NCBI GenBank assembly: GCA_963920705.1
Contig: OY987232.1
Location: 17,769,942-17,833,941 of the forward strand
Reading direction: 5' to 3'
DNA from: Odiellus spinosus
Lineage: Eukaryota > Arthropoda > Arachnida > Opiliones > Phalangiidae
DNA: 64,000 nt
The notes below the pieces were generated by a model. It saw only the letters and a program-made list of their open reading frames with translations, searched no databases and was not told where the DNA came from. Position 1 is the stretch's first letter. Each line of letters starts with the position of its first letter. The position numbers and the translations under genes are program-made. This document shows, one piece after another, positions 9,930-47,152 of this stretch.

Positions 9930-10196
9930 ATGAATTCGACAGTAGTTTTGGTATTAGCCATCCTTGTAACGATGTCCTCCATCGTACAAATGGCGCCTTC
10001 AACAGTCACCAACTCGGTAATTTCGAATACAACTCATTCAGATTCGACCTTTACCGACTCAACCGTGTCAAACTCTGTAATCACCAAGTCTACATTCACC
10101 AATGCTAAAATCAGTAATTGTAAAATTGACACGTCAACCATCACTGGATGTACACTCGATGGACAGACAATCACTGGCAAAACTATGACTTGCTAA
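9930..10196 (+). CDS. Secreted TxT pentapeptide-repeat protein, array gene 1
   Basis: 88 residues. Residues 1-23 are a signal peptide (hydrophobic VVLVLAILV). Residues 24-88 divide without remainder into 13 five-residue blocks, for example STVTN, STFTD, STVSN, STITG and KTMTC. In each block the first residue is small (S, A, C), the third is hydrophobic (V, I, F, L, M), and the second and fourth are mostly Thr/Ser. This is the register of pentapeptide-repeat beta-solenoids, where positions 1 and 3 point inward and 2, 4 and 5 outward, four blocks per turn; 13 blocks give about three turns. The outward Thr-x-Thr pairs resemble those on insect antifreeze solenoids, but function is not shown. Three Cys: blocks 9, 11 and the last residue. 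The coding part is a single exon behind a 5'UTR intron (9496-9923). AATAAA at 10231 is the likely polyadenylation signal. The sequon in SNTTH may be glycosylated. Confidence 0.8.
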   Translation: MNSTVVLVLAILVTMSSIVQMAPSTVTNSVISNTTHSDSTFTDSTVSNSVITKSTFTNAKISNCKIDTSTITGCTLDGQTITGKTMTC

Positions 10197-10199
10197 GTC

Positions 10200-11673
10200 T
10201 AATATTTCTTGTAACTACTTGAAATATTCAAATAAAATAAAATATTAATTTGCAAAATAATCATTGGTTTTTTTCTCTATCAATTTAATTTCCTACGTGG
10301 GTCTTACTTTAGACAAACATAATATCCTCGAATTATTTCGTAATGTGCTGATTAGTTAATTACAAACTGAGATAAGAACCGCAATTACCTTTTTAAAACA
10401 CCTCGGGCAAATATTTTACAAATAACTCTATCCTTCATACTAAACATATTCATTTTGTAGCCGTTATTGAATTTTGTAAATTGTATCATTTTTCTTAAAT
10501 TAACTATGAAATAAAATTAAAAAACTAATTTGTTGTATACTTAATTGGAGCCTTAAATGATATTTATATTTTTTAAATACAAATTATATTTAATTTGATA
10601 TTATTTTGATCATATTTTACATTAAATTTGTAAATCATGATTTAAATATTATAATATTCGTATTAATTAACTGATATTTAATGAAATAAACGTCAAAACA
10701 TGAAGACTATCACGTGTCTTTGAACACCACAAATTTTCAATAGAATATTATTTGCACTACACTTTACGATCGGTCCATAACGCTACACGCTAACGCGTTC
10801 ATTGAAATATTATTTCTCTCTTAGTTTTAAAAGATGTCTAATTTTCGACAATTTAAACTAGATTTAACCAGAATTTAAATATAATTTCATTTACTAGGGT
10901 AATTAAATATGTATTACTAATTATAATGGCTAATTAAATAATAAAGAACAATCAAGCGTGATTAACTAAGCTTCGAAAAAACAGAAAATGTCCTTGAAAT
11001 TTAAAAATTCTACGAATTTCAAATCATCTCAATATTTATTGAGTCGTAATTCAGTAAACTAAATTTATATTATCTGTTATTTTAGTAGGGAAGCTGTATT
11101 TACGTAATAATTCGACGAATTTAAACTATGTAACAAGTAGTTAATTTTAAATTTAATTTCATACGGAATATTAAACTAACATTAACGGGGAAAACCCCTA
11201 AATTAAATATAATCATCATGTGGGTGAAAGCCATAAACTTCCAAGAACTTTGCTAAATAAATTGCAAAACGCGAGATGTCACTGTTTACGCAATGCGAAG
11301 GGTAACAACCAACCAATCACCTCCCTCAACTCATTCCCTGGAAGCCATACTGAGCCCGTTAGTTGTCAAGGTGTATAAACGCTGGATCAAATAAAATAGT
11401 ATGACCATGGTTTTAAACCACATCTGTTATGATTATTTTGAGTAAAACGTGACACCTTACGTCATAAAACGTGATATATTACGTAACTGTTTGAACAATG
11501 CGCATGCCAAAAAACTGCCGATCACGTTTTCCGGTTAGAAAATTTGAAAACAATTTTTGTTATAGGTGTATCAACAATGGAATGAAATAATATTAACGAC
11601 AATTTTTAGCAGAATTTGGACGTTTTATTTATTTAGATAAGAGACTCTTGACAATAATAATTAAGGAAAATGG
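10200..11673. other. Array spacer between genes 1 and 2
   Basis: No second gene is seen. It holds the 3' flank (AATAAAATAAAATATTAATT), AT-rich sequence and the duplicated upstream flank with CCAATCAC and ACGTCATAAAACGTGATATATTACG, a partly palindromic CRE-like block (TTACGTCA) that is conserved before genes 1-3. Confidence 0.5.
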
Positions 11674-11681
11674 TATAAATA
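11674..11681 (+). promoter_or_regulatory. TATA box of array gene 2
   Basis: TATAAATA. The first-exon donor GTAAGT is at 11768 and the acceptor ends at 12183. Confidence 0.65.
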
Positions 11682-12189
11682 ACGCTTGCTTGGCTACTTC
11701 AAATCATAACTCACCTTAGTAAGCGAACTGAACAGTCTTAAAGAAACTGCTAAAGCTATCCAATAAAGTAAGTATTATAAAAACTCAAATTTATTGCAAA
11801 TAGTGCCAAGTTCTGTTGGTACTCATTCTTAGATTGTTAAACTTTTGCCTGTTGTATCCAACCCTTAACGTTAACTTCGCAACAGATATGTTTACCCTTT
11901 ACTTCTATAAGTTTAATCAAATAATTATTTTAGGTTCAGGTTCCCTTTACGATCGAGTTACTCACTTTTCACGGGTGTACTAAACGCTAGCTTAGTTAAC
12001 AGCATAAGTACACTACACCTCTAAGTAGCAAAAATGGGGAATTTGACCTTCTTTCTAATTTAACCCTCGCAATTAATTTAATGTAGCGTATCAGGGCCTT
12101 GAAGTTAATTATTGCATTTTGATAACCAAATGTTTCTCAAAGTAATACCGTAAATAAACTAAGATATTACAATTTCTTTATAGATAATC

Positions 12190-12456
12190 ATGAATTCAAC
12201 AGTAGTTTTGGTATTAGCCATCCTTGTAACGATGTCTTCCATCGTACAAATGGCGCCTTCAACAGTCACCAACTCGGTAATTACGGATACAACTCATTCG
12301 GATTCTACCTTTACCGACTCAACCGTGTCAGGCTCGACTATCACCAAGTCTACACTCACCAATGCTAAAATTACTAATTGTAAAATTGACACTTCAACCA
12401 TCACTGGATGTACACTCGATGGACAAACAATCACTGGCAAGACTATGACTTGTTAA
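12190..12456 (+). CDS. Secreted TxT pentapeptide-repeat protein, array gene 2
   Basis: 88 residues with the same 23-residue signal region and 13 blocks as gene 1. Block 6 is STITK instead of SVITK, which puts a further Thr-x-Thr on the second face (blocks 2, 6, 10). The protein is identical to that of gene 3 although silent differences exist, so the two are recent duplicates or are homogenised. Stop codon TAA, with AATAAA about 35 bp downstream. Confidence 0.8.
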   Translation: MNSTVVLVLAILVTMSSIVQMAPSTVTNSVITDTTHSDSTFTDSTVSGSTITKSTLTNAKITNCKIDTSTITGCTLDGQTITGKTMTC

Positions 12457-12459
12457 AGT

Positions 12460-14212
12460 CTAATATTACTTGTAGCTACTTGAAATATTCAAATAAAATA
12501 AAATATTAATTTGCAAAATAATCATTGGTTTTTTCTCTATCCATTTAATTTCCTACGTGGGTCTTACTTTAGACAAACATAATATCCTCGAATTATTTCG
12601 TAATGTGCTGATTAGTTAATTACAAACTGAGATAAGAACCGCAATTACCTTTTTAAAACACCTCAGGCAAATATTTTACAAATAACTCTATCCTTCATAC
12701 TAAACATATTCATTTTGTAGCCGTTATTGAATTTTGTAAATTGTATCATTTTTCTTAAATTAACTATGAAATAAAATTAAAAAACTAATTTGTTGTATAC
12801 TTAATTGGAGCCTTAAATGATATTTATATTTTTTAAATACAAATTATATTTAATTTGATATTATTTTGATCATATTTTACATTAAATTTGTAAATCATGA
12901 TTTAAATATTATAATATTCTTATTAATTAACTGATATTTAATAAAATAAACGTCAAAATGTTAAGACTATCACGTATCTTTGAACACCACAAATTTTCAA
13001 TAGAATATTATTTGCACTACACTTTACGATCGGCCCATAACGTTACACGCTAACGCGTTCATTGAAATATTATTTCTCTCTTAGTTTTAAAAGATGTCTA
13101 ATTTTCGACAATTTAAACTAGATTTAACCAGAATTTAAATATAATTCCATTTACTAGGGTAATTAAATATGTATTTCTAATTATCATGGCTAATTAAATA
13201 ATAAAGAGCAATGAAGGGTGATTAACTAAGCTTCGAAAAAACAGAAAATGTCCTTGAAATTTTAACATTCTACGAATTTCAAGTCATCTCAATATTTATT
13301 GAGTCATAATTCAGGAAACTTAATTTTTATTATTTGATATTTTAGTAGGTAAGATGAATTTACGTAATAATTCGACGAATTTAAACTATGTAACCAGTAG
13401 TTAATTTAAATTTAATTTTATACGGGATATTAAACTAACATTAACGGGGAAAACCCCTAAATTAAATATAATCATCATGTGGGTGAAAGCCACAAACTTC
13501 CAAGAACTTTGCTAAATAAATTGCAAAACGCGAGATGTCACTGTTTACGCAATGCGAAGGGTTAAAAACTAACCAATCACCTCCCTCAACGTTTTCCCTG
13601 GAAGCCATACTGAGCAGGCTGGGAAATAAGGATAATTTTTAAACTGGACTTGTGGCCAGCGGTTTAATTAAAAAACTGGACATTGGCCAGTTACGATTTT
13701 CACGAGCTTGACAATCTGTCATTATGACGTAGGACTATGAAGTAGGCTAAGAAACAGAACTAAATTTTGGAATTAATTAACTGGCCATGTGGCCAGTAGA
13801 CCCCCAAGCATTTAATTTTTAAACTGGCCCATCTAATTTTTAAACTGGACTTTTGTCCAGTAAAACCGCCTTATTTCCCAGCCTGATACTGAGCCCGTTA
13901 GTTGTGAAGGTGGATAAACACTGGATGAAATAAAGAATTATGACCATGGTTTTAAACCACATCTGTTATGATTATTTTGAGTAAAACGTGACACCTTACG
14001 TCATAAAACGTGATATATTATGTAACTGTTTGAACAATGCGCATGCCAAAAAACTGCCGATCACGTTTCCCGGTTAGAAAATTTGAAAACAATTTTTCTT
14101 TTAGGTGTATCAACAATGGAATGAAATAATATTAACGACAATTTTTAGCAGAATTTGGACGTTTTATTTATTTAGATAAGAGACTCTTGACAATAATAAT
14201 TAAGGAAATTGG
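12460..14212. other. Array spacer between genes 2 and 3
   Basis: A near-copy of the gene 1-2 spacer with one clean insertion (13615-13885, listed separately). No gene. Confidence 0.5.
13615..13885. mobile_element. hAT-like MITE with 8-bp target duplication
   Basis: 271 bp with perfect terminal inverted repeats CAGGCTGGGAAATAAGG / CCTTATTTCCCAGCCTG. The 8-bp duplication ATACTGAG flanks it at 13607-13614 and 13886-13893. The homologous spacer at about 11345 has a single ATACTGAG and no element, so the empty site is present in this window. Inside, TGGCCAG and CTGGAC motifs repeat. There is no coding capacity. An 8-bp duplication with CAG...CTG ends is the hAT superfamily pattern. Confidence 0.85.
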
Positions 14213-14220
14213 TATAAATA
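14213..14220 (+). promoter_or_regulatory. TATA box of array gene 3
   Basis: TATAAATA. The donor GTAAGT is at 14306 and the acceptor ends at 14727. Confidence 0.65.
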
Positions 14221-14733
14221 ACGTTTCCTCGGCCACTAGTAATCATAACTCACCTTAGTAAGCGAACTGAACAGTCTAAAGAAACTGCTAAAGCTATCCA
14301 ATAAAGTAAGTATTTTAAAAACTAAAATTTATTGCAAATAGTGCCAAGTTCTGTTGGTACTCATTCTCAGATTGTTAAACTTTTGCCTGTTGTATCCAAC
14401 CCTTAACGTTAACAGACGCTAATTTTAAATATATGTTTACCCTTTACTTCTATAAGTTTAATCAAATAATTATTTTAGGTTTAGTTTCCCTTTACGATCG
14501 AGTTACTCACTTTTCACGGGTGTACAAACGCTAGCTAAGTTAACAGCATAAGTACACTACACCTCTAAGTAGCAAAAATGGGGAATTTGACCTTCTTTCT
14601 AATTTAACCCTCGCAATTAATTTAATGTAGCGTATCAGGGCCTCACCGTTAATTATTCCATTTTGATAACCAAATGTTTCTCAAAGTAATACAGTAAATA
14701 AACTAAGATATTACAATTTCTTTATAGATAATC

Positions 14734-15000
14734 ATGAATTCAACAGTAGTTTTGGTATTAGCCATCCTTGTAACGATGTCTTCCATCGTACAAATGGCGC
14801 CTTCAACAGTCACCAACTCGGTAATTACGGATACAACTCATTCGGATTCTACCTTTACCGACTCAACCGTGTCAGGCTCGACTATCACCAAGTCTACACT
14901 CACCAATGCTAAAATTACTAATTGTAAAATTGACACTTCAACCATCACTGGATGTACACTCGATGGACAGACAATCACTGGCAAAACTATGACTTGCTAA
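14734..15000 (+). CDS. Secreted TxT pentapeptide-repeat protein, array gene 3
   Basis: 88 residues, identical in sequence to the gene 2 product, with the same signal region, 13 blocks and three Cys. The last few codons and the 3' flank (GCAAAACTATGACTTGCTAAG) match gene 1 better than gene 2, which looks like a gene-conversion tract or an unequal-crossover junction between paralogues. Confidence 0.8.
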   Translation: MNSTVVLVLAILVTMSSIVQMAPSTVTNSVITDTTHSDSTFTDSTVSGSTITKSTLTNAKITNCKIDTSTITGCTLDGQTITGKTMTC

Positions 15001-15567
15001 GTCTAATATTTCTTGTAACTACTTGAAATATTCAAAGAAATAAAAATTTAATTTGCAAAATAATCATTGGTTTTTTCTCTATCCATTTAATTTTTTACGT
15101 GGGCCTTACTTTAGACAAACATAATATCCTCGAATTATTTCGTAATGTGCTGATTAGTTAATTACAAACTGAGATAAGAACCGCAATTACCTTTTTAAAA
15201 CACCTCGGGCAAATATTTTACAAATAACTCTATCCTTCATACTAAACATATTCATTTTGTAGCCGTTATTGCCTTTTGTAAATTGTATTATTTTTCTTAA
15301 ATTAACTATGAAATAAAATTAAACTAATTTGTTATATACTTGGGTATCATTAGTTTATAAGAACATTGGAACCTTAAATTATAATTATACTATTTTTTAA
15401 ATGCAAATTATATTTAATTTGATATTATTTTGACCATATTTTATATTAAATTTGTAAATCATGATTTAAATATTATAATATTCTTATTAAATAACTGATA
15501 TTTAATGAAATAAACGTCAAAACTTTAAGACTATCACGTGTCTTTGACGTTTTGTTTATTTAGATAA
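15001..15567. other. 3' flank of array gene 3
   Basis: Duplicated AT-rich downstream sequence ending in a deletion junction at about 15547, just before a composite transposon. Confidence 0.5.
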
Positions 15568-15736
15568 GGGTTGGCAATTAGCCGGCTAAAACTAGTTTTT
15601 ACCGGGACATGTGGCAAAAAGTGGTTTTAACCGGCAAAAACGGAAAAAAACCGGCTAAAAGTGGCAAAAACTACCAATCAAGGGTAGAATACTATTAAAT
15701 GAAGTTAAATTGTATTTAGGACGTGTTGAATTTCAT

Positions 15737-16077
15737 CAGAAGCCGATGAAACCCTCCTTTGAAGTATACTACTCTAATGTTCCATATAGCGCTCCTCTCT
15801 GTATGGGTAAAATTCACAATTTTACGAGATCGGAGGGGTCCTACTTCATACCTCCCTGTCTACGGAAAATTGGAAATTCTCTCTCTCCACAAAAACGACG
15901 ACGTTTTTTTTGACGTACTCCAAGGCTGCTAGAGATATTCGCTCGACGAACTCCCGCTCCGAAAATATCTACCGTTAGGAGGCGTACGAATCGCGCTTTT
16001 TGAAACTAACCCATACAGAGAGGGGTAGACAAGACCAGGGAGTAATAGACTTCAAAGAAGGGTTTCTTCGGCTTCTG
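15737..16077 (+). mobile_element. M1 MITE, copy 1 (orientation A)
   Basis: First copy of the main family: about 338 bp, ends CAGAAGCCGATGAAACCCTC / GGGTTTCATCGGCTTCTG. The inverted repeats extend imperfectly to CCTCTCTGTATGGG (about 75 bp), and there is no transposase. Orientation A means that the AAATTGGAAATTCTCTCTC strand reads on plus. Flanks ATTTCAT/CTTTCAT are a 7-bp duplication with one change. It lies inside M12. Confidence 0.88.
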
Positions 16078-16427
16078 CTTTCATGTAAAGTACTAGCTGT
16101 TACTATCTGAATTCATTAGACAGTTTTTTTTTTGTTTTTTTTTTTTCTTCTATAGTTTATATCTATAGTGAGATACATTGCCCATTTCTCTTGGAACCTA
16201 TCCTCTGGACTTTTTAACCTAGAGGTGGGAAGCCTTCCATAAAGCAGTTGAGAAATATTTGGGGTAAAAAAAAGTTTCCCAAAACACTTGAAATCAGGTC
16301 TTAGTCCAATAAAGAAAATCGAGCTAAAGAATAGAAACATGATAAAGATATATGGGCTTGCTATTAGTTTGCTAACTGAAACGTCTATCACCATGTGATT
16401 TCACCAGAGTGTAGGTCTCACTAATAC

Positions 16428-16846
16428 CAGAGGTATATTATAACCCCCTTCGGGGGGGAAGTATGAAAGGTAGGCAAAATCGACGAACAACAAGTGCCCG
16501 GCGTAAATCGCGGCGGATCGACACACCGCTTTACTCCCAAAAAATAGTTACACCATTTTGAACCTCACTAAATTTTCCCTACGCGCACTTCCGGAACTCG
16601 CGAGCCGAAGTCAACCTTCGACTCCATTTTAACAGACAGCCTGACTCCCGAGACAGGAAGTTCTAAACACAAATCGAGCCGTCTTGTTTATACAAAGACC
16701 ATTTACTAGAGTAGCGACATTGAGAAATTCAGCGCGAGCTAGTGGCCTAGATAGTCAGCAGCGGGCTCTTGTTGTTCGTGATTTTTAGCATTGGTAGTAT
16801 AGGGGCTTTCATACTTCCCCCCGAAGGGGGTTATTATATACCTCTG
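16428..16846 (-). mobile_element. M2 MITE, copy a
   Basis: About 415 bp with termini CAGAGGTATATAATAACCCC and its inverse. Directly inside each end is a perfect hairpin, CCCCC-TTC-GGGGG. The body is GC-richer than the host and non-coding. The target duplication CTAATAC is perfect (7 bp). It lies inside M12. Confidence 0.9.
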
Positions 16847-17215
16847 CTAATACTAAGACTTTGGTAGTATTGTTGGCTTGACATTAAAAACGAGAGGTTA
16901 AGGTTTTGAACAACATTCCATTTTTGAGTTTGAGATATTTTTCAGCTTTATTTCTATATTTCTTGTTTTTTTTGTTTTTTTTTGGTTTTTTTTTAATCAA
17001 AAAAGCCACTTGAAGTGGGAAAAAACCGCGGCAAAATCTGTTTTTGCCATAAATTTTAACCTGGTTAAAACTGGGCGGAAAAAACCGCGGCCAAAACTAG
17101 TTTTTGCCACCCCGGTTTTAACCTGGAAAAAACCGCGATTTTTTTCCACCCCTGGCAAAAACTTGCCAACCCTTAAAGATAAGAGACTCTTGACAATAAT
17201 AATTAAGGAAATTGG

Positions 17216-17223
17216 TATAAATA
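17216..17223 (+). promoter_or_regulatory. TATA box of array gene 4
   Basis: TATAAATA. The donor GTAAGT is at 17310 and the acceptor ends at 17752. Only about 43 bp of the ancestral upstream sequence remains before the M12 insertion. Confidence 0.65.
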
Positions 17224-17758
17224 ACGCTTCCTCGGCTACTAGTAATCATAACTAACCTTAGTAAGCGAACTGAACAGTCTTAAAGAAATTGCTAAAGCTA
17301 TCCAATAAAGTAAGTATTATAAAAACTCAAATTTATTGCAAATAGTGGGAAGTTCTGTTGGAACTCATTCTCAGATTGTTAAACTTTTGCCTGTTGTATC
17401 CATCCCTTAACGTTAACTTCGCAACAGACGCTAATTTTAAATATATGTTTACCCTTTACTGCTATAAGTTTAATCAAATAATTATTATAGGTTTAGTTTC
17501 CCTTAACGATCGAGTTACTCATTTTCACGGGTGTACAAACGCTAGCTAAGTTAACAGCATAAGTACACTACACTTCTAAGTAGCAAAAATGGGGAATTTC
17601 TTTGGAGTTTGACCTTCTTATTTCTAATTTAACCCTCGCAATTAATTTAATGTCGCGTATCAGGGCCTCACCGTTAATTATTCCATTTTGATAACCAAAT
17701 GTTTCTCAAAGTAATACAGTAAATAAACTAAGATATTTCAATTTCTTTATAGACAATC

Positions 17759-18025
17759 ATGAATTCGACAGTAGTTTTGGTATTAACCATCCTTGTAACG
17801 ATGTCTTCCATCGAACAAATGACGGCTTCAACAGTCACCAACTCGCAAATTACGGATACAACTCATTCGGATTCTACCTTTACCGACTCAACCGTGTCAG
17901 GCTCGACTATCACCAAGTCTACACTCACCAATGCTAAAATTACTAATTGTAAAATTGACACTTCAACCATCACTGGATGTACACTCGATGGACAGACAAT
18001 CACTGGAGAGACTATGACTTGTTAA
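17759..18025 (+). CDS. Secreted TxT pentapeptide-repeat protein, array gene 4
   Basis: 88 residues, 13 blocks. It differs from gene 2 in the signal region (VLTILV; IEQMTA at the presumed cleavage end), in block 2 (SQITD) and in the last block (ETMTC). All three Cys are kept. The gene is intact despite the composite transposon immediately upstream of its promoter; whether it is still expressed cannot be judged from sequence. Confidence 0.78.
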   Translation: MNSTVVLVLTILVTMSSIEQMTASTVTNSQITDTTHSDSTFTDSTVSGSTITKSTLTNAKITNCKIDTSTITGCTLDGQTITGETMTC

Positions 18026-18029
18026 AGTC

Positions 18030-18742
18030 TAATATTTCTTGTAACTACTTGAAATATTCAAATAAAATAAAATATTAATTTGCAAAATGATCATTGGTTT
18101 TTTCTCTATCCATTTAATTTTCTACGTGGGTCTTACTTTAGACAAACATAATATCCTTGAATTATTTCGTAATGTGCTGATTAGTTAATTACAAACTGAG
18201 ATAAGAACCGCAATTACCTTTTTAAAACACCTCAGGCAAATATTTTACAAATAACTCTATCCTTCATACTAAACATATTCATTTTGTAGCCGTTATTGAA
18301 TTTTGTAAATTGTATCATTTTTCTTAAATTAACTATGAAATATAATTGAAAACCTAATTTGTTGTATACTTAATTGGAGCCTTAAATGATATTTATATTT
18401 TTTAAATACAAATTATATTTAATTTGATATTATTTTGATCATATTTTATATTAAATTTCTAAATCATGATATAATTATCATAATATTATTATTAAATAAC
18501 TGATATTTAATGAAATAAACGTCAAAACTTTAAAACTATCACGTTTCTTTGAACACCACAAATTTTCAATAGAATTTTAAATCATCTCAATATTATTTGC
18601 ACTACACTTTACGATCGACCCATAACGTTACACGCTAACGCGTTCATTGGATTATTATTTCTCTCTTAGTTTTAAAAGATGTCTAGTTTTCAAAAATTTA
18701 AATAGATAAGAGACTCTTGACAATAATAATTTAGGAAAATGA
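18030..18742. other. Shortened array spacer between genes 4 and 5
   Basis: Duplicated 3' flank joined at about 18700 (CAAAAATTTAAATAGATAAG) directly to the promoter-proximal flank of gene 5, with most of the usual spacer missing. Confidence 0.5.
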
Positions 18743-18750
18743 TATAAATA
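18743..18750 (+). promoter_or_regulatory. TATA box of array gene 5
   Basis: TATAAATA. The donor GTAAAT is at 18837 and the acceptor ends at 19257. Confidence 0.65.
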
Positions 18751-19263
18751 ACGCTTCTTCGGCTACTACTTATCATAACTAACCTTAGTAAGCAAACTGA
18801 ACAGTCTTAAAGAAACTGCTAAAGCTATCCAATAAAGTAAATATCTTAAAAACTCAAATTTATTGCAAATAGTGGGAAGTTCTGTTGGAACTCATTCTTA
18901 GATTGTTAAACTTTTGCCTGTTGTATCCAACCCTTAACGTTAACAGACGCTAATTTTAAATATATGTTTACCATTTACTGCTATAAGTTTAATCAAATAA
19001 TTATTTTAGGTTCAGGTTCCCTTTACGATCGAGTTACTCATTGTCACGGGTGTACAAACGCTAGCTAAGTTAACAGCATAAGTACACTACACTTCTAAGT
19101 AGCAAAAATGGGGAATTTGACCTTCTTTCTAATTTAACCCTCGCAATTAATTTAATGTCGCGTATCAAGGCCTCACCGTTAATTATTCCATTTTGATAAC
19201 CAAATGTTTTTCAAAGTAATACCGTAAATAAACTAAGATATTACAATTTCTTTATAGATAATC

Positions 19264-19530
19264 ATGAATTCAACAGTAGTTTTGGTATTAGCCATCCTTG
19301 TAACGATGTCCTCCATCGTACAAATGGCGCCTTCAACAGTCACCAACTCGCAAATTACGAATACAATTCATTCGGATTCGACCTTTACCGATTCAACCGT
19401 GTCAAACTCTGTAATCACCACGTCTACATTCACCAATGCTAAAATCAATAATTGTAAAATTGACACTTCAACCTTCACTGGAAGTACACTCGATGGAATG
19501 ACAATTTCTGGCAAGTCTATGACTCGCTAA
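19264..19530 (+). CDS. Secreted TxT pentapeptide-repeat protein, array gene 5 (two Cys lost)
   Basis: 88 residues in 13 blocks with the conserved signal region. Unlike all its paralogues, block 11 begins with Ser instead of Cys (STLDG) and the final residue is Arg instead of Cys (KSMTR). Only one of three Cys remains, so any disulfide between them is lost. The reading frame is intact. It may be a diverged functional copy or an early pseudogene. Confidence 0.72.
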   Translation: MNSTVVLVLAILVTMSSIVQMAPSTVTNSQITNTIHSDSTFTDSTVSNSVITTSTFTNAKINNCKIDTSTFTGSTLDGMTISGKSMTR

Positions 19531-19609
19531 AGTCTAATATTTCTTTTAACTACTTGAAATAGTCAAATATAATAAAAATTTAATTGTTCTTTTTTTATTC
19601 CTATCCATT

Positions 19610-19815
19610 TAATTTTTTATGTGGGCCTAATTACGCAAATTACGGTTACAATTCATTCAGTTTCGACCTTAACCGGCACAACCGGGTCAAACTCGACTAT
19701 CACCAAGTCTACACTCACCGATGCTAAAATCAATAATTGTAACATTGACACTTCAACCATCACTGGATGTACACTCTATGGACAGACAATTATTGTCAAG
19801 ACTATGACTTGTTAA
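19610..19815 (+). pseudogene. Headless partial copy of an array gene, after gene 5
   Basis: From about block 2 (QITVT) to the end (KTMTC and TAA) this is a pentapeptide-repeat sequence, but it lacks the ATG, the signal peptide and the 5' exon. No splice acceptor is seen just before it. It follows gene 5 by about 90 bp, after that gene's AATAAAAATT. Block register and Cys are kept; TLYG and IIVK are aberrant. Confidence 0.65.
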
Positions 19816-20027
19816 AGTCTAATATTTCTTGTAACTACTTGAAATATTCAAATAAATAAAAATTTAATTTGCAAAATAATCATTGGTTTTTTTCTCTATC
19901 CATTCAATTTTCTACGTAGGCCTTACTTTAGACAAATTATTTCGTAATTTACTTATTGCAACTGAGATAAGAACCGCAATTGTCTTTTTAAAACCCCTCG
20001 GGCAAATATTTTACAAATAACTATCCT

Positions 20028-20366
20028 CAGAAGTAGATGAAACCCTCCTTTGAAGTCTACTACTCTAATGTTCCATATAGCGCTCCTCTCTGTATGGGTA
20101 AAATTCCCAACTTTACGAGATCGGAGGGGTAATACTTCATACCCCCTGTCTACGGAAAATTGGAAATTCTCTCTCTCCACAAAAACGACGACGTTTTTTT
20201 GACGTACTCCAAGGCTGCTAGAGATATTCGCTGGACGAACTCCCGCTCCGAAAATATCTACCGTTAGGAGGCGTACGAATCGCGCTTTTTGAAACTAACC
20301 CATACAGAGAGGGGTAGACAAGACCAGGGAGTAATAGACTTCAAAGGAGGGTTTCATCGGCTTCTG
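20028..20366 (+). mobile_element. M1 MITE, copy 2 (orientation A)
   Basis: The left end has the TAGATGAAACC variant and the right end CATCGGCTTCTG. Flanks CTATCCT/ATATCCT (six of seven match). It interrupts the duplicated spacer sequence ACAAATAACT-ATCCTTCATAC, whose empty form occurs after genes 1-3. Confidence 0.88.
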
Positions 20367-20883
20367 ATATCCTTCATACGAAACATATTGGTTTATTGTA
20401 TTCATTTGTAGCCGTTATTGCCTTTTCTAAATTGTATCATTTTTCTTAAAGGAACTAAAAATAAAATTAAACTAATTTGTTATATACTTGGGTATCACTA
20501 GTTTATAAAAACATTGGAACCTTAAATTATAATTATACTATTTTTTAAATACAAATTATATTTAATTTGATATTATTTGGATCATATTTTACATTAAATT
20601 TGTAAATCATGATATAAATATTAAAATATTCTTATTAATTAACTGATATTTAATTAAATAAACGTCAAAACTTAAAGAATATCACGTGTAGGTCAAGACA
20701 TAAGTGTCTTTTAATACCACAAATTCCCAATATTATTTGCACTACATTTTACGATCGGCCCATAACGTTACACGCTAACGCGTTCATTGAAATATTATTT
20801 CTCTCTCAGTTTTGAAAGATGTCTAGTTTTCAACAATTTAAACTAGATACGAGACTCTTGACAATAATAATTTAGGAAATTGG
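20367..20883. other. Array spacer between genes 5 and 6
   Basis: Duplicated spacer, slightly rearranged. It ends with the promoter-proximal flank (GATACGAGACTCTTGACAAT). No gene. Confidence 0.5.
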
Positions 20884-20891
20884 TATAAATA
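20884..20891 (+). promoter_or_regulatory. TATA box of array gene 6
   Basis: TATAAATA. The donor GTAAAT is at 20977 and the acceptor ends at 21404. Confidence 0.65.
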
Positions 20892-21410
20892 ACGCTTCCT
20901 CGGCTACTAGTAATCATAACTAACCTTCGTAAGCGAACTGAACAGTCTAAAGAAACTGCTAAAGCTATCCAATAAAGTAAATATTTTAAAAACTCAAATT
21001 TATTGCAAATAGTGCCAAGTTCTGTTGGTACTCATTCTCAGATTGTTAAACTTTGCCTGTTGTATCCAACCCTTAACGTTAACTTCGCAACAGACGCTAA
21101 TTTTAAATATATGTTTACCCTTTACTGCTATAAGTTTAATCAAATAATTATTTTAGGTTTAGTTTCCCTTTACGATCGAGTTACTCATTGTCACGGGTGT
21201 ACAAACGCTAGCTAAGTTAACAGCATAAGTACACTACACTTCTAAGTAGCAAAAATGGGGAATTTGACCTTCTTTCTAATTTAACCCTCGCAATTTATTT
21301 AATGTAGCGTATCAGGGCCTCACCGTTAATTATTGCATTTTGATAACCAAATGTTTCTCAAAGTAATACCGTAAATAAACTAAGATATTACAATTTCTTT
21401 ATAGACAATC

Positions 21411-21677
21411 ATGAATTCGACAGTAGTTTTGGTATTAGCCATCCTTGTAACGATGTCTTCCATCGAACAAATGACGGCTTCAACAGTCACCAACTCGCAA
21501 ATTACGGGTACAACTCATTCGGCTGCGACTTTTACCGACTCAACCGTGTCAAACTCGAAAATCACCACGTCTACATTCACCAAGGCTAAAATCACTAATT
21601 GTAAAATTGCCACTTCAACCATCACTAGATGTACACTCGATGGAACGACAATTTCTGGCAAGTCTATGACTTGCTAA
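21411..21677 (+). CDS. Secreted TxT pentapeptide-repeat protein, array gene 6
   Basis: 88 residues, 13 blocks, three Cys kept. It shares IEQMTA with gene 4 in the signal region and KSMT at the C-terminus with gene 5. Blocks THSA-ATFTD, STFTK and STITR are private changes, some placing a charge on an outward position. It appears intact. Confidence 0.77.
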   Translation: MNSTVVLVLAILVTMSSIEQMTASTVTNSQITGTTHSAATFTDSTVSNSKITTSTFTKAKITNCKIATSTITRCTLDGTTISGKSMTC

Positions 21678-21739
21678 AGTCTAATATTTCTCGTGACTAC
21701 TTGAATATTCAAATATAATAATTTTATTTCCTATCCATT

Positions 21740-21945
21740 TAATTTTCTATGTGGGCCTAATTACGCAAATTACGGAAACAACTCATTCAGTTTCGACCTT
21801 TACCGGCTCAACCGTGTCAAACTCGACTATCACCTTGTCTACAATCACCAATGCTAAAATTACTAATTGTAATATTGACACTTCAACCATCACTGGATGT
21901 ACACTTAATGGACAGACAATTTTTGTCAAGGCTATGACTTGCTAA
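21740..21945 (+). pseudogene. Headless partial copy of an array gene, after gene 6
   Basis: Same arrangement as after gene 5: it begins about 75 bp downstream of the stop codon, with CCTAATTACGCAAATTACGG, and runs in frame to KAMTC and TAA without a signal peptide or start. The gene plus headless-copy pair was therefore duplicated as one piece. AATAAAAATT follows. Confidence 0.65.
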
Positions 21946-22668
21946 AGTCTAATATTTCTTGTAACTAATTGAAATATTCAAATAAAATAAAAATTTAATT
22001 TGCAAAATAATCTTTGTTCTTTTCTTATTCCTATCCATTTAATTTTCTAAGTGGGCCTAAAGATAAAAACAAATAAATAACGCCTCCTCATATCTGAAGA
22101 AACAGATAATGTAGATTCAACTTTAATTTTAAGTCTGGTTTTTCCCTTTACAGCTATACTTTTAATTTCCCTTTAGCCATTACTCATTCCCTTTCAAGTC
22201 GCAGTGACACGACATATCACGAGTGTTAGCAGAGGTATATAATAACCCCCTTCGGGGGAAGTATGAAAGCCCATATACTACCAATGCTAAAAATCACGAA
22301 CAACAAGAGCCCGCAGCTGACTATCTAGGCCACTAGCTCGCGCTGGACTTCTCAATGTCGCTACTCTAGTAAATGGTCTTTGTATAAACAAGACGGCTCG
22401 ATTTATGTTTAGAACTTCCTGTCTCGGGAGTCAGGCTGTCTGTTAAATGGAGTCGAAGGTTGACTTCAGCTCGTAAGTTCCGGAAGTGCGCGTAGGGAAA
22501 ATTAAGTGAGGTTCAAAATGGTGTAACTATTTTTTGGGAGTAAAGCGGTGTGTCGATCCGCCGCGATTTACGCCGGGCACTTGTTGTTCGTCGATTTTGC
22601 CTACCTTTCATACTTCCCCCCCGAAGGGGGTTATTATATACCTCTGGTGTTAGCTATAAAATCAGCAT
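21946..22668. other. Spacer with M2 copy, no gene
   Basis: Sequence between array gene 6b and the gene 7 unit. It contains the M2 element at 22230-22646. Confidence 0.5.
22230..22646 (+). mobile_element. M2 MITE, copy b
   Basis: Perfect 7-bp duplication GTGTTAG on both sides. Opposite orientation to copy a. Confidence 0.9.
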
Positions 22669-23295
22669 GAGTAAAGGTGGATTCACATATAGCGGTAGCG
22701 TAGTACAACATGGAGTAATAACTAAATGAGATTTAGGTTCTTGAACATGAATCTAAATAGGACGTGGTTCAATTTCCTTGTCACTATGGGTATCCCACCT
22801 TAAGAGTGGATTCAAATATATCTGTAGCGGATTGCAACATGGAGATTAAGGCTCGATAACAACAACCTTGAAGAACGAGAACGCATAGATATCCATTAAT
22901 TATTACCAGAAGCCGATGAAACCCTCCTTTGAAGTCTATTACTCCCGGGTCTTGTCTACCCCTCTCTGTATGGGTTATTCTCAAAAGGCGCGATTCGTAC
23001 GCCTCCTAACGGTAGATGTTTTCGGAGCGGGAGTTCGTCGAGAGAATATCTCTAGCAGCCTTGGAGTTCGTCCAAAAAACGTCGTCGTTTGTGGAGAGAG
23101 AGAATTTCCAATTTTCCGTAGACAGGGGGGTATGAAGTAGGACCCCTCTGATCTCGTAAAATTGTGAATTTTACCCATACAGAGAGGAGCGCTATATGGA
23201 ACATTGGAGTAGTAGTCTTCAAAGGAGGGTTTCATCGGCTTCTGTTATTACTCCATGGTTTGTTACTCTACAGCTGTACGTGAATCCACCTTTAC
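22669..23295. mobile_element. Palindromic element M10, interrupted by M1
   Basis: Ends GAGTAAAGGTGGATTCAC and GTGAATCCACCTTTAC are inverted repeats. The motif ACATGGAGTAATAACT recurs inside. An M1 copy splits it. The second copy at 26794-27093 has no M1. Confidence 0.6.
22907..23244 (-). mobile_element. M1 MITE, copy 3 (orientation B)
   Basis: Perfect 7-bp duplication TTATTAC. Inserted in M10. Confidence 0.9.
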
Positions 23296-23450
23296 AATTA
23301 TATTCTCATTGATCGAAAAACAATGTCTTTCCCCCACTTTGGAATATGAACCACATTTAAGTGAGAACCGAATAATATTTTAAACAAACACTTTTCTATT
23401 CAACTTCAAGCTCAACAAGTCGTCTCGAATTTTACTCGCAAAGAAATAGG

Positions 23451-23458
23451 TATAAAGA
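23451..23458 (+). promoter_or_regulatory. Possible TATA box of array gene 7
   Basis: TATAAAGA within AATAGGTATAAAGAAATT, conserved before gene 8. A first exon could end at the GTAAAG donor at 23517, with the intron reaching the CTTCAATAG acceptor at 24217. This would put the hAT insertion in the 5'UTR intron. Confidence 0.4.
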
Positions 23459-23593
23459 AATTGGTTAGGCTTAGTTTTAAAATCCTAAAGATTGGGAATA
23501 AGAACCGTAAAGTCCTAGAACAATAACTATTTAAATTAATATTAAAAAATTTTAATTTTGATTATTTAGAAAAGAGCTTCTTGAAGATAATTA

Positions 23594-24056
23594 CAGGGTG
23601 ACCACTGAAAATTTTAAAATCCTATATAGGAAATATAGGAAATTTCTTTGCGAAATATAGGAAAATATAGGAAGAATTTTACGTAAAATATAGGATAAAA
23701 CAGGAAGAAATAAGTGTAAAATATATGATAAAATAGGAAAATAACTAATTGAAAGTAGGAACCATGTTTATTATCGCGTCACAACTCTCGCCACCGGTTT
23801 AAACACGGTATTAATATGATCCAATTGCTTAAATAGTATGGAATTTTACAGACTATTTTAACTGGAAAATGTACAGTTAAGCTAAAATAATCTTATACAG
23901 CCACGGCTGACAGTATGATTTAAAACTTTACCCTTAACTAGAGATTTTGAGTAGAAATATAGGAGATTATAGGAATTGAAATTAAATTACAGGAGAATAT
24001 AGGAAGGAGGTGAAAATATAGGAAAAAATAGGAAATATAGGAAAAGTGGTCACCCT
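23594..24056. mobile_element. CAGGGTGACCAC element with ATATAGGAAA repeats
   Basis: Termini CAGGGTGACCACT and AGTGGTCACCCT are inverted repeats. The interior is built of repeated ATATAGGAAA. Flanks ATAATTA/TTAATTA match at six of seven. The gene 8 unit (28085-28125) carries the homologous sequence without it. The termini look hAT-like, but the duplication length is not certain. Confidence 0.75.
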
Positions 24057-24223
24057 TTAATTATTATTGCAATTTAATTAATTTTATGTAGAGTAGATAA
24101 TTATTACTATTAATGCCTCCGTTACACTTTAGCACCCTAATTAAAACTAACTTTTTCTCTCTAATTAATACCGTAAATAAACTTTGAATAATATCTAATA
24201 TTACAATTCTTCAATAGATAATA

Positions 24224-24490
24224 ATGAATTCAACAGTATTTTTCGTGTTGGCCATCCTTGTGACGATGTCTTCGATCGTACAAATGGTGCCTTCAGTAAT
24301 CACAAACTCGAAAATTACGAACACAACTCATTCAGATTCGACCTTTACCGACTCAACCGTGTCCAACTCGAAAATCACCAATTCTACACTCACCAATGCT
24401 AAGATCAATAATTGTACAATTAACACGTCAACCATCACTGGTTGTACACTATCTGGAAAAACAATCACTGGCAAGACTATGACTTGCTAA
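24224..24490 (+). CDS. Secreted TxT pentapeptide-repeat protein, array gene 7
   Basis: 88 residues, 13 blocks, three Cys. More diverged from genes 1-6: the signal region reads VFFVLAILV, block 1 is SVITN, block 9 CTINT and block 12 KTITG. Thr-x-Thr pairs remain in blocks 4, 7, 10, 12 and 13. Its upstream region is not the TATAAATA type but is related to that of gene 8. Confidence 0.78.
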   Translation: MNSTVFFVLAILVTMSSIVQMVPSVITNSKITNTTHSDSTFTDSTVSNSKITNSTLTNAKINNCTINTSTITGCTLSGKTITGKTMTC

Positions 24491-24687
24491 ATTCTAATAT
24501 TTCTTGTAACTACTTGTAATATTCAAATATAATAAAAATTTAATTTGCAAAATAATAATTATTTCTTTTCCTAAATAATTTTCACTGTTAATCATTTTTT
24601 CCAAGGGCCTTTAGAGAGCTTTACACGAATTATTTCATTACCAATTTGGCCAATTGCCTTCAAGTTAAAATTGTAACTAAAACAATG

Positions 24688-25150
24688 AAATTTGTATATT
24701 CGTATAATTGTTAAATGGTTTACCCGAAGATAAGCCTTTGCCGCTTTATCTATCTACAAATTACTCGTTTTCAAACGTATAACGATGGATAAGAAACATT
24801 CGCGTTTCCAGAATTAGTCGAAAATATAAGAAACAATATTTCAAATTGACTTTTAATTCGAAGAATAGAAATAAAACGATAAGATTTTAAATCATCTTTT
24901 TATTCATTATTTTTCACGGAAAATAAATTTTGAATTCAATTTTTATCCGAACGTATAACGCGGATAATATTCTAAGAGAAGGCGGCCATTTTTGGATAAA
25001 AACGGATATGGATTATGTTTTATTTACTTTATCTTGGAATAAGTTAACTCGAATGAAAAATAGTCTATTTTTAATCAAACAGATAATTAATCAGAATTTA
25101 GTAGATTTTATCCAATTAATAAAAATTATACGAATTCCGAGCTCTAATTT
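24688..25150 (+). mobile_element. M6 interspersed repeat, copy 1
   Basis: About 460 bp, nearly identical in inverse orientation to 58908-59350. Ends contain the inverted pair ATTCGTATAATT / AATTATACGAAT; the right end reads CCGAGCTCTAAT. It splits duplicated array spacer sequence. Confidence 0.7.
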
Positions 25151-25777
25151 CATACGGAATATTACTACGGTAGCTTCGAAAAAAACACAAAATGTCCTTG
25201 ACATTTAAAAACATTCTACGAATTTCAAGTCATCCCAATATTTATTGAGTCATAATTCAGAAAACGAAATTATTATTTGTTATTTTAGTAGGTAAGATGA
25301 ATTTACATAGTTTAAATTCGACGAATTATTAAGTATATAGTAGTTAATTTAAATTTAATTTTAAATGGAATATTAATCTAAGATTAAAGGGGAAAACCCC
25401 TAAATTAAATATAATCATGTGGGTTAAAGTCACAATCTTCCAGGAAGTCATTCCATACACGTATTTATAATAAATTTTGCTAAATAAATTGGAAAACGTG
25501 ACATATTACTGCTTACGCAATGGTAAAAAACAACCAATCACGCTATTCATCCCTTAGGTCTTACTCACGAAGCTGAACAATATTACACAACACTTGTTAT
25601 TGTAGTTGTATTAACATTGAAAGCAAAAAAACAAGATTAATAAGAATTTTAACTAGAAATTTTGTATTTGGTTATAAATGGAAGGTCATATTAAAGGGAA
25701 ACTTGGAGCTAAAAGTTTTTAAACGCGTTTTTCGTGTTTAAAATAATTTCTAAAGTTTACTAAAGTTTGAATTTTAG

Positions 25778-26542
25778 CAGAAGCCGATGAAACCCTCCTT
25801 TTGAAGTCTATTACTCCATGGTCTTGTCAACCCCTCTCTGTATGGGTTAGTTTCAAAAAGCGCGATTCTTACGCCTCCTAACGGTAGATGTTTTCGGAGC
25901 GGGAGTTCGTCGAGCCAGAGGTATATAATAACCCCCTTCGGGGGAAAGTATGAAAGCCCCTACACTACCAATGCTAAAAATCACGAACAACAAGAGCCCG
26001 CTGCTGACTATCTAGGCCACTAGCTCGCGCTGGACTTCTCAATGTCGCTACTCTAGTAAATGTTCTTTGTATAAACAAGACGGCTCGATTTGTGTTTAGA
26101 ACTTCCTGTCTCGGGAGTCAGGCTGTCTGTTAAAATGGAGGCGAAGGTTGACTTCAGCTCGCGAGTTCCGGAAGTGCGCGTAGGGAAAATTAAGTGAGGT
26201 TCAAAATGGTGTAACTATTTTTTGGGAGTAAAGCGGTGTGTCGATCCGCCGCGATTTACGCCGGGCACTTGTTGTTCGTCGATTTTGCCTACCTTTCATA
26301 CTTCCTACCGAAGGGGGCTATTATATACCTCTGGTCGAGCGAATATCTCTAGCAGCCTTGGAGTTCGTCAAAAAAAACGTCGTCGTTTGTGGAGAGAGAG
26401 AATTTCCAATTTTCCGTAGACAGGGGGGTATGAAGTAGGACCCCTCCGATCTCGTAAAATTGGGAATTTTACCCATACAGAGAGGAGCGCTATATGGAAC
26501 ATTAGAGTAGTAGACTTCAAAGAAGGGTTTCATCGGCTTCTG
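25778..26542 (-). mobile_element. M1 MITE, copy 4 (orientation B), split by M2
   Basis: M1 carrying an M2 copy inside. No clear 7-bp duplication outside. The flanks themselves form a long imperfect inverted repeat (CTAAAATTCAAAC on the right against GTTTGAATTTTAG on the left), so M1 lies at the centre of another palindromic element. Confidence 0.85.
25916..26333 (+). mobile_element. M2 MITE, copy c, nested in M1
   Basis: Perfect 7-bp duplication GTCGAGC, which is M1 sequence, proving that M2 moved after this M1 arrived. Confidence 0.92.
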
Positions 26543-26793
26543 TATTTACTAAAATTCAAACCTTACGAAACTTTAGAAATTAATTTAAAGACCAAAAACC
26601 GAGTCTAAAAATTCTGAAAAAAATTCGCTAATACGTTTTGTGGCATGGTGATTCCGAAAATAAATTCAAAAACATGTTCTTGATTTAGCAAATTCCAAGT
26701 TTCAATCTCAGTTTATCGTGGCTTCAGTTTCCATTTAACTATTACTACACGACACGAGTGGTAGGCTGGTAGCTAACAACCAGCTGAATAGCT

Positions 26794-27093
26794 TGAGTAA
26801 AGGTTGACTCACATATAGCGGTAGTGTTGTACACCATGGAGTAATAACTACAAGAGATTTTTTTATTCTTGAACATGAATTTTGAAATCTAAATAACCTT
26901 GTCACATGTTAAATTTCCCTGCCACTACACGTGGATCCATCCACCTTAAGAAATGATTCTTATATATATCTGTAACGGATTAGAAGATGGAGTAATAACT
27001 AAGGGAGATAAAGGTTCGATAACAAGAGCCTTGAACAACGGCTTATTGCTCCATGTTTCGTTACTCTACAGCTATATGTCAATCAACCTTTAC
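26794..27093. mobile_element. Palindromic element M10, uninterrupted copy
   Basis: Same ends as the copy at 22669, without an M1. It is also part of the duplicated upstream region shared by genes 7 and 8. Confidence 0.6.
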
Positions 27094-27216
27094 AGATAGG
27101 AATATAATCTCATATTTTTGTCGGAAACTAACGTCTTTCCTCCCCTTTGAAATATAAAGCAATTTTTAGAGCGAATCAAATACATTTTCAAGCGCAACTC
27201 GTCGACTCAAAATAGG

Positions 27217-27224
27217 TATAAAGA
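27217..27224 (+). promoter_or_regulatory. Possible TATA box of array gene 8
   Basis: TATAAAGA in the same context as for gene 7. A possible donor GTAAGG is at 27288, with the acceptor ending at 28232. The foldback element would then lie in the 5'UTR intron. Confidence 0.4.
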
Positions 27225-27322
27225 AATTCGTTAGGCTTAGTTTTAAATTCAAGATTAAAATCCTAAAAATTGGGAATAAGAAGAACTGTAAGGTCATAGG
27301 TCAATATCCATTTCAAATTAAT

Positions 27323-28041
27323 GGTATGTACCCATTTCGCCCAAAATGATCTATTCCCATTTCGCCCAAGGCATTTTTTGCCCAAAATTATCTATTTCCA
27401 TTTCGCCCAATCCTACTTTGCCCAATCGCTTTATCATTTGGCCCTAAATTATTTCTTCCCATTTTGCCCAAACTAAAAATTCCTTTTCTCAATTCACCCA
27501 ATCCCAATTTGCCCAATCGTTTTATCAGTTAGCCTAGAATTATCTATTCCCATTTCGCCCAACCCAAAAATTTCTCTTCCCTTTTCGCCTAAAACGATTA
27601 AAGCTTAAACCTTTTAAAATTTAAAGTCTTAGTAGGCCAAAAAAGAGACTTTTTTTTAATTTAGGTTAGGTTAGGTTAGGTTAGGTTGGGGGAAAAAAGT
27701 GGAAAAATGTGACTTGGGCAAAATGAGATTGGTCCAAATTAAAATTGGGCGAAACGAGATTGGGCGAGAAGACATTAGGCCAAATGGGAATTGGGCCAAA
27801 TGGAAATTGGGCCAAATGGAAATTGGGCCAACGGGAATTGGGCGAAAAGAAATTGGGCGAAAAGAAATTGGGCGAAAAGAAATTGGGCCAAATGGGATTG
27901 GGCGAAATGGGATTTGGGCGAAAAGAAATTGGGCGAAATGGGAATTGGGCGAAATGAAATTGTGCGAAAAGAAACTGGGCGAAATGGGAATTGGGCGAAA
28001 TGAAATTGGGCGAAAATAAATTGGGCGAAATGGGGGTAGAC
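27323..28041. mobile_element. Foldback element FB1 with TTAGG core
   Basis: 719 bp. The left arm is repeated CCCATTTCGCCCAA-type units, the right arm is the same unit inverted (GGGCGAAATGGG, GGGCGAAAAGAAATT), and the core is (TTAGG)5. A perfect 9-bp duplication CAAATTAAT lies at 27314-27322 and 28042-28050. The gene 7 unit (about 23540) keeps the empty site. Long open frames here on both strands are only the arm repeats. Nine-bp duplications are usual for Mutator-like elements, but there is no transposase. Confidence 0.85.
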
Positions 28042-28235
28042 CAAATTAATATTGGAAGAAAAATTAGCATTTTGATTATTTAGAGAAGAGTCTCTTGAAA
28101 ATTATTTAAGTAATAATTGTAATTAAATTAAATTAATAATTACTATCAGGGCCTTCGTTACCCCAATTAATAAATTATCGCATTTTGATTACCAAATTAC
28201 CGTAATTTCATTTTTTTTTTTATTTTAAATAGATA

Positions 28236-28670
28236 ATGAATTCAACAGTAATTTTGGTATTACCCATCCTTTTGATGATTACTTCGTCTCTACAAATGGA
28301 GCGCTCAATCATCACAAACACACAAATTAAGGGTAAATCGACATTCAGCAACTCAAACGTGTCAGATTCGTTTACCACAACGTCTACATTCACGAACTCC
28401 CAAATTAACGGTAGTAAAACATTCGATTCGACCTTTACCGACTCAACCGTGTTACGCTCGGTAATTATCGGGTCATCATTCACGAACTCACGAGTTACTG
28501 ATACTGAAACTTCGGGAACGACCTTTACCGACTCAACCGCGTTAAGCTCGGTAATCATTGGCTCAACATTCACTAATGCCAGAATCACTAATTGTAATAT
28601 TACTTCGTCAACCATCACTGGATGCGCAGTTACTGGACAGATAATCACTGGACATACTATGACTTGCTAG
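28236..28670 (+). CDS. Long secreted TxT pentapeptide-repeat protein, array gene 8
   Basis: 144 residues. A signal region of 23 residues (VILVLPILLMI) is followed by 24 five-residue blocks with a single extra Lys after the second. A unit of six blocks (30 residues), starting S/T-TF-S/T-N/D and including SVIIG and STFTN, occurs three times. The 88-residue paralogues contain it once, so the length gain is two extra copies of a 90-bp unit. The tail (STITG, CAVTG, QIITG, HTMTC) matches the paralogues and keeps the same three Cys. Six solenoid turns are predicted. ATG is preceded by TTTTAAATAG, an acceptor. AATAAAAATT follows the stop codon. Confidence 0.78.
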   Translation: MNSTVILVLPILLMITSSLQMERSIITNTQIKGKSTFSNSNVSDSFTTTSTFTNSQINGSKTFDSTFTDSTVLRSVIIGSSFTNSRVTDTETSGTTFTDSTALSSVIIGSTFTNARITNCNITSSTITGCAVTGQIITGHTMTC

Positions 28671-46925: not shown

Positions 46926-47152
46926 GTTTTATAAACTTGAAGGATATTTTATGTTATTATATATACAATTATGGTACTGCATTTTTTTTTTGATATCATC
47001 ATTATTATATAGAAAATGATGTGTATACCCATTCAAAATTGATCATTAACATAAATCGATGATAAACCATGACCTAAACCGTTGCTAGAATTTTCTTCAT
47101 AATATATAATAATTGATATGGTTCACAGCGCCCAAATTACTTTTATAAATAT

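Follow-up and report, generated by a model that had tools for sequence, protein, structure and literature searches.

In a 64,000-nucleotide stretch of contig OY987232.1 of Odiellus spinosus (assembly GCA_963920705.1, positions 17,769,942 to 17,833,941; hereafter the window), we identified a tandem family of genes encoding tiny proteins whose mature parts consist of five-residue blocks (pentads) rich in the motif Thr-x-Thr. Judging from their sequence pattern, these are probably small secreted ice-binding (antifreeze) proteins folding as a three-sided solenoid like the antifreeze protein of the spruce budworm (CfAFP), a design which was probably reached separately, that is, by convergence. This reading follows from the presence of a single Thr-x-Thr face together with a coil of 15 residues as in CfAFP, the two aligning in the same register. 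The fold, its handedness, the binding of ice and a role in cold survival are predicted by analogy with the budworm protein.

The Gene Array

Eight intact open reading frames of the Thr-x-Thr family, all on the plus strand, were found in the window at the places given in an earlier note on this DNA. Seven encode proteins of 88 residues and one a protein of 144 residues, and the starts of the eight genes are spaced 1.5–4 kb apart. Gene 1 (9930-10196) encodes a signal-peptide-like start followed by 13 pentads. Genes 2 (12190-12456) and 3 (14734-15000) encode the same protein with three synonymous differences and are followed by gene 4 (17759-18025), gene 5 (19264-19530), gene 6 (21411-21677) and gene 7 (24224-24490), which by synonymous divergence (dS) is the most diverged 88-residue form in the window. 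Gene 8 (28236-28670) encodes the long form of 144 residues, in which 22 pentads carry eight Thr-x-Thr rungs, one in exactly every third block. Truncated copies without a signal peptide, which the earlier note does not mention, lie on the same strand 3′ of gene 5 (19636-19812, matching residues 30-88, with a 5′ part that resembles the 3′ flank) and 3′ of gene 6 (21763-21942, matching residues 29-88). An outlying intact copy, gene 9, again with a truncated follower, is located on the minus strand of the same contig (C8:17.243-17.244 Mb), ~0.54 Mb from the array.

Every frame opens with a putative signal peptide of ~22 mostly hydrophobic residues, as judged by eye, and we infer that the proteins are secreted. 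Three Cys residues are encoded by genes 1–4, 6, 7 and 8, two by gene 9 and one by gene 5. Gene 5 has lost both Cys74 and Cys88, and this joint loss would fit a disulfide between the two, whereas the loss of Cys74 alone in gene 9 would not.

A search of the whole 443-Mb assembly listed 54 matches, 14 of which are family genes or copies. The other 40 have E values of at least 0.028, and all 16 of these that were examined (15 on contig C2, one on C13) turned out to be simple tandem-repeat frames. Pattern-based scans of bacterial, archaeal and viral sequence collections yielded no relative, on which ground a bacterial or viral source was rejected.

A Probable Coil of Three Pentads

Pentads were counted backward from the C-terminus and laid out three per row. 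The mature part of each 88-residue protein divides into 13 whole pentads; in the 144-residue protein an 11-residue N-terminal remainder precedes the 22 pentads. For gene 2 the rows read STVTN SVITD TTHSD / STFTD STVSG STITK / STLTN AKITN CKIDT / STITG CTLDG QTITG / KTMTC, with Thr-x-Thr in every block of the first column. The first column of gene 8 consists of STFSN, STFTN, STFTD, SSFTN, TTFTD, STFTN, STITG and HTMTC. In this protein the pattern [TS]x[TS] (Thr or Ser, any residue, Thr or Ser) occupies all eight blocks of one three-block phase and none of the 14 blocks of the other two phases. Simple counting gives a chance of 1 in 319,770 for this arrangement, a figure that is too small since the blocks are not independent owing to internal duplication. 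When blocks were permuted, none of 20,000 permutations equalled the phase contrast observed for three blocks per coil, and no signal appeared when the same test assumed coils of two, four or five blocks. Self-identity of the gene 8 protein is 0.37, 0.45 and 0.37 at lags of 15, 30 and 45 residues, compared to 0.21-0.29 at the other multiples of five up to 40 (0.28 at lag 20 and 0.21 at lag 40) and a mean of 0.09 at lags not divisible by five.

Taken together, the 144-residue protein is probably made of 15-residue coils of three pentads each with a single Thr face, as Thr-x-Thr recurring in every third block lines up as a ladder only when a coil holds three blocks; in a four-sided coil the Thr residues would spiral round the protein. 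In the 88-residue proteins, blocks 1, 4, 7, 10 and 13 all fit [TS]x[TS] in genes 1, 2, 3, 4, 5, 6 and 9, and four of the five do so in gene 7. The permutation test for three blocks per coil gave P = 0.016 for gene 5, 0.042-0.045 for genes 1, 6 and 9, ~0.10 for genes 2 and 4, and 0.50 for gene 7. A four-block signal was absent from all seven distinct 88-residue proteins (P = 0.63-1.0) as well as from the 144-residue protein, in which lags 20 and 40 showed no excess identity. The four-sided Rfr fold proposed in the earlier note is disfavoured by the third-block recurrence of Thr-x-Thr in the 144-residue protein and by the lack of a four-block signal in any of the proteins. Its more general proposal of pentapeptide-type solenoids with outward Thr-x-Thr is supported, at the level of sequence; among the options which it listed was the right protein class, combined with the wrong coil.

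Conservation of the Thr Face

To compare the three faces, the blocks of the eight distinct proteins were tabulated, omitting gene 3 as a duplicate of gene 2 and representing gene 8 by its last eleven blocks. On the Thr face, the outward positions 2 and 4 are Thr or Ser in 77 of 78 cells: position 4 is Thr in all 39, and 38 of the 39 cells of position 2 hold Thr or Ser. The corresponding positions of the two other faces are Thr or Ser in 76 of 126 cells, with variation among Lys, Asp, Asn, Ala, Val, Gln, Leu and Arg. Mean entropy at position 4 is 0.00 on the Thr face versus 0.90 and 0.81 on the others. A regular Thr-rich face has apparently been kept while the other faces changed.

The Lys- and Asp-bearing blocks 8, 9 and 11 all sit on the two non-Thr faces. 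The earlier note had counted these blocks as interruptions of the Thr ladders that speak against a simple antifreeze protein; this objection arose from the four-sided coil assumed there and no longer carries weight, as the Thr face is intact in 77 of 78 cells.

Pairwise ratios of nonsynonymous to synonymous divergence (dN/dS) are 0.35-0.54 when gene 7 is compared with genes 1-6 and 0.82 when it is compared with gene 9; pairs of gene 8 with any of the remaining genes give 0.53-0.83.

Comparison with Known Solenoids

The closest known architecture is that of CfAFP (sbwAFP) of tortricid moths (Choristoneura, Notocelia; PF05264; PDB 1EWW, 1L0S, 1M8N). According to PMC9210311, CfAFP forms a left-handed beta-helix with 15 residues per coil and Thr-x-Thr along one face of the triangular helix, the ladder being the known ice-binding surface. 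Short isoforms carry five such motifs and long ones seven, the long isoforms being more active, and 15 of 16 genes lie in one region (PMC9210311). Judged by sequence pattern, both families have 15-residue coils, Thr-x-Thr on a single face, a signal peptide (putative in Odiellus), short and long isoforms, and clustered genes with partial copies (for CfAFP, PMC9210311). The short forms of both carry five rungs, whereas the long forms carry seven in CfAFP and eight in Odiellus. The signal peptide of CfAFP occupies its own exon of a two-exon gene (PMC9210311), while the signal-peptide-like start and the mature part of the Odiellus proteins are encoded in one frame. The Odiellus proteins have at most three Cys and were not found to share the conserved disulfide-bonded cysteines of CfAFP, and the CfAFP hosts are moths, in contrast to the probably non-insect host considered below. 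The remark in the earlier note that secreted proteins of this kind are not familiar in animals proved half right, as the closest known architecture is itself from an animal (moth CfAFP; PMC9210311).

Beetle antifreeze proteins (TmAFP, DAFP) also bear a Thr ladder on a repeat protein, but theirs are Cys-rich repeats of 12-13 residues (PMC4046741). The putative antifreeze proteins of the spider mite Tetranychus urticae, with 19-25% Cys and 12-residue repeats likened to the beetle antifreeze protein (PMC4046741), resemble the Odiellus family in being small, mostly secreted, multi-gene products of a non-insect arthropod for which an antifreeze role has been proposed. With its 15-residue period and at most three Cys, the Odiellus family does not show the Cys-rich 12-13-residue repeats of these beetle and mite proteins. 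Among the entries listed in searches of the open-licence literature, there was nothing comparable in print for chelicerates or myriapods.

How much of the likeness to CfAFP goes beyond layout was evaluated by shuffling. The mature part of gene 5 scores 19.7 with PF05264, and its four block shuffles score 13.1, 13.9, 10.8 and 20.6. For gene 8 the score is 17.1, and its two block shuffles score 9.6 and 9.4. Smith-Waterman comparisons of five proteins with two CfAFPs (1eww, 1m8n), ten in all with 1,000 block shuffles each, showed that the real score was matched in 2-64% of cases when blocks were shuffled and in 2-76% when shuffling was confined to faces, but in no more than 0.1% when single residues were shuffled. 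Shuffles matched the real score at a rate of at least 10% in eight of the ten comparisons, the lowest values (2% and 4% of block shuffles) being obtained for gene 7. A profile-profile comparison with CfAFP aligned four columns only, at a score matched by 17 of 60 shuffles. When the family profile was aligned to CfAFP (1eww) with HMMER, the CfAFP blocks STLTN, TTCTG and STSTG fell on Thr-face blocks of the family. The similarity to CfAFP is mostly explained by the pentad and coil layout, and since the host is in addition most likely not an insect, convergence appears to be the simplest reading.

In a genome search with PF05264, 28 matches were listed: five are family genes, two belong to one satellite of RIKGS pentapeptides (C8:17.556 Mb) and 21 are others, two of which (on C7 and C16) were examined and found to be repeat frames. 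At C7:12858139-12858321, a frame of 1817 codons passes the PF05264 cut-off jointly with its neighbours in frame (27.1 bits).

The Rfr pentapeptide-repeat proteins (MfpA, QnrB1, McbG-like) resemble the Odiellus family in their five-residue blocks with a small residue 1 and a hydrophobic residue 3 pointing inward. They have four blocks per coil, in contrast to the three indicated here by the period of the 144-residue protein. A search with Pfam hidden Markov models for pentapeptide repeats, which the earlier note had suggested as a check, gave no match above the curated cut-off for the seven proteins scored (gene 3, identical to gene 2, was left out); Pentapeptide_3 as well as Pentapeptide_4 matched below threshold. 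Six block shuffles were scored with Pentapeptide_4, four of gene 5 and two of gene 8. Two of them exceeded the real score of 24.7 (30.9 and 27.4) and four fell below (17.5-21.5), namely both gene 8 shuffles and two of the four gene 5 shuffles. Two residue shuffles gave no match. The Pentapeptide_4 score depends mainly, though not wholly, on the pentad.

The Host Genome

Contig C286 (16,074 bp) is the mitochondrial genome, in which COX2 directly follows the COX1 stop codon and tRNA-Leu(taa) lies beside nad1. A tRNA scan placed additional tRNAs within other genes, including two of type Leu(taa) in one of its two modes; these were taken as false. Adjacent COX1 and COX2 with tRNA-Leu beside nad1 represent the ancestral arthropod state, unlike that of insects and crustaceans. 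The order nad1-trnL(UUR)-rrnL is reported for an arachnid, and the order of Limulus as the ground pattern, in PMC2231378. The odorant-receptor model PF02949 matched the genome once, in an open frame shared with a gustatory-receptor match, against 67 matches for the gustatory-receptor model (PF08395). To our knowledge, odorant receptors are confined to insects. Because of the ancestral mitochondrial gene order and the lack of any odorant receptor beyond this one cross-match, the host is most likely a non-insect arthropod, chelicerate or myriapod. A lepidopteran host, considered on account of the likeness to CfAFP, was rejected on the same two grounds. Arginine kinase does not discriminate, with 378.7 bits for the best single-domain chains (Limulus) and 378.1 for those ranked next; within chelicerates and myriapods, COX1 gave a tentative hint of a harvestman.

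At C15:11.71-11.80 Mb, gustatory-receptor matches form a large cluster, the majority of them in single long open frames. Among eight ends of four contigs inspected, four have long TTAGG arrays, two of them terminal; the start of C1 carries TCAGG repeats, and the ends of C8 have none or a few.

Flanks and Genomic Neighbourhood

A T-rich stretch and ATAGA[CT]AAT precede the ATG of all eight array genes, although the flank of gene 8 (27986-28235, plus strand) is otherwise different. This element resembles a 3′ splice site and may mark a 5′ intron with a short upstream first exon. An AATAAA-type signal is conserved within ~50 nucleotides 3′ of the stop codon.

A 15-bp minisatellite of ~21 copies (27714-28032) ends ~200 bp 5′ of gene 8, and further 15-bp arrays occur in the window at 31587-31740, 31984-32055, 44719-44772 and 45102-45189. 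The genome is rich in minisatellites, some of which, of 15-bp period, read as endless pentapeptides.

The neighbouring genes that could be named with Pfam are ordinary ones, with a TIL domain, a SUZ domain and an ammonium transporter. The TIL cysteine-rich domain lies at 963-1319 on the minus strand (PF01826, E = 5.9e-8). A TIL-containing protein has been proposed as precursor of the tortricid antifreeze proteins (PMC9210311); for the domain in the window, no link to the Thr-x-Thr family was seen. A cuticle protein domain is present ~7 kb from the outlying copy. A dispersed repeat, perhaps a mobile element, occurs on both strands at many places in the window (e.g., 22889-23244, 47117-47516 and 53058-53516); its translation has LCMG between a stretch of 10 and one of 29 residues.

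Weighing the Explanations

Several observations weigh against ice-binding proteins of the CfAFP type. The 15-residue coil with a single Thr-x-Thr face, as read from sequence period and phase, is clear in the 144-residue protein, but the 88-residue proteins taken alone give a weak three-block signal in six cases and none in gene 7, where the first Thr-face block is SVITN and the signal is lost for this reason. In gene 7 the four-block contrast even exceeds the three-block contrast (0.5 versus 0.3), though not significantly (P = 0.63). Since the paralogs arose by recent duplication and parts of gene 8 are duplicated internally, neither cells nor blocks are independent. The other faces of the 88-residue proteins are Thr-rich as well, and the non-Thr faces of gene 8 bear outward hydrophobic residues (Val, Ile, Leu in SVIIG, found twice, STVLR and STALS), which might form a dimer or packing surface. 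Nine pairs, each with gene 6 or gene 9, have dN/dS of ~1.0-1.6, which may reflect relaxed or diversifying change. PF05264 gave 17.1-23.1 bits in all seven proteins scored, below its curated cut-off of 25.9, and this model is unspecific, as the endless RIKGS satellite (C8:17555801-17556397, minus strand) passes the cut-off. Pentapeptide_4 scored higher than the CfAFP model, with 23.3-27.4 bits in all seven against a cut-off of 38. Likewise, when the family profile was searched against PDB, CfAFP (E = 0.0075) came second to the pentapeptide-repeat protein MfpA (E = 2.7e-4).

The last two results would be expected of an ordinary four-sided Rfr protein with some other function, as would the sub-threshold Pentapeptide_3 matches and the fall of the Pentapeptide_4 score in both gene 8 and two of the four gene 5 block shuffles. 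We nevertheless regard such a protein as very improbable: two of six block shuffles outscore the real protein, the lags of 15, 30 and 45 and the third-block Thr-x-Thr of the 144-residue protein cannot be reconciled with a four-block coil, and a four-block signal is lacking in all seven 88-residue proteins. True homology with the tortricid CfAFP, by descent or horizontal transfer, would leave the antifreeze function in place and concerns the origin of the genes. Equal coil length, the single Thr-x-Thr face, short and long forms and clustered genes agree with it; real sequences scored above five of six block shuffles of genes 5 and 8 with PF05264, and only 2-4% of block shuffles match gene 7 against CfAFP. 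Yet PF05264 stays below its cut-off, shuffles that preserve blocks or faces commonly reach the Smith-Waterman scores in the other proteins, Cys residues number at most three, the putative signal peptide and the mature part apparently lie in a single exon, and an insect host is improbable, which makes common origin decidedly unlikely.

The same three-sided solenoid might instead belong to a structural or adhesive secreted protein, for example of egg coat, silk, cuticle or gut lining, with the Thr face as a packing or sugar-bearing surface. The outward hydrophobic residues of the 144-residue protein could then pack against something, and the Pfam-named neighbours give no pointer to cold. We consider this function unlikely, given that two outward Thr/Ser columns strictly kept beside faces free to change are what ice binding predicts, and that the nearest proteins with exactly this layout, as far as known to us, are antifreeze proteins. 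That the genes are translated minisatellites without protein function is scarcely credible, even though numerous minisatellites of this genome, some with a period of 15 bp, can be translated as endless peptides: nine copies have an intact frame from ATG to stop with a signal-peptide-like start, the AATAAA-type signal is conserved, dN/dS is below 1 in diverged pairs, and conservation is specific to one face.

Proposed Mechanism and Implications

As a CfAFP-like ice-binding protein, the mature chain would wind into a three-sided beta-solenoid with three pentads, or 15 residues, per coil. In each pentad, the small residue 1 and the mostly hydrophobic residue 3 would point inward and residues 2 and 4 outward. 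One face with Thr-x-Thr on nearly every coil would thereby form a flat two-column Thr ladder, of five rungs in the 88-residue forms (four in gene 7) and eight in the 144-residue form. Such a ladder would hold ordered water and dock on ice, thereby halting crystal growth in the body fluid. Tandem copies would raise the dosage, and the long form might be more active, as in the spruce budworm.

Antifreeze proteins have been invented many times in animals, usually with unrelated sequences and folds. Independent invention of the spruce budworm architecture in a lineage of chelicerates or myriapods, possibly de novo from 15-bp minisatellites with chance-open pentapeptide frames, is a speculative and still doubtful possibility. 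If the proteins bind ice and arose separately, the family would represent a second origin of the three-sided Thr-x-Thr solenoid, outside insects, and thus a rare convergence on one ice-binding architecture. It would also offer structure-function studies a natural variant poor in Cys, and a system for testing whether antifreeze proteins of this type can arise from minisatellite DNA.

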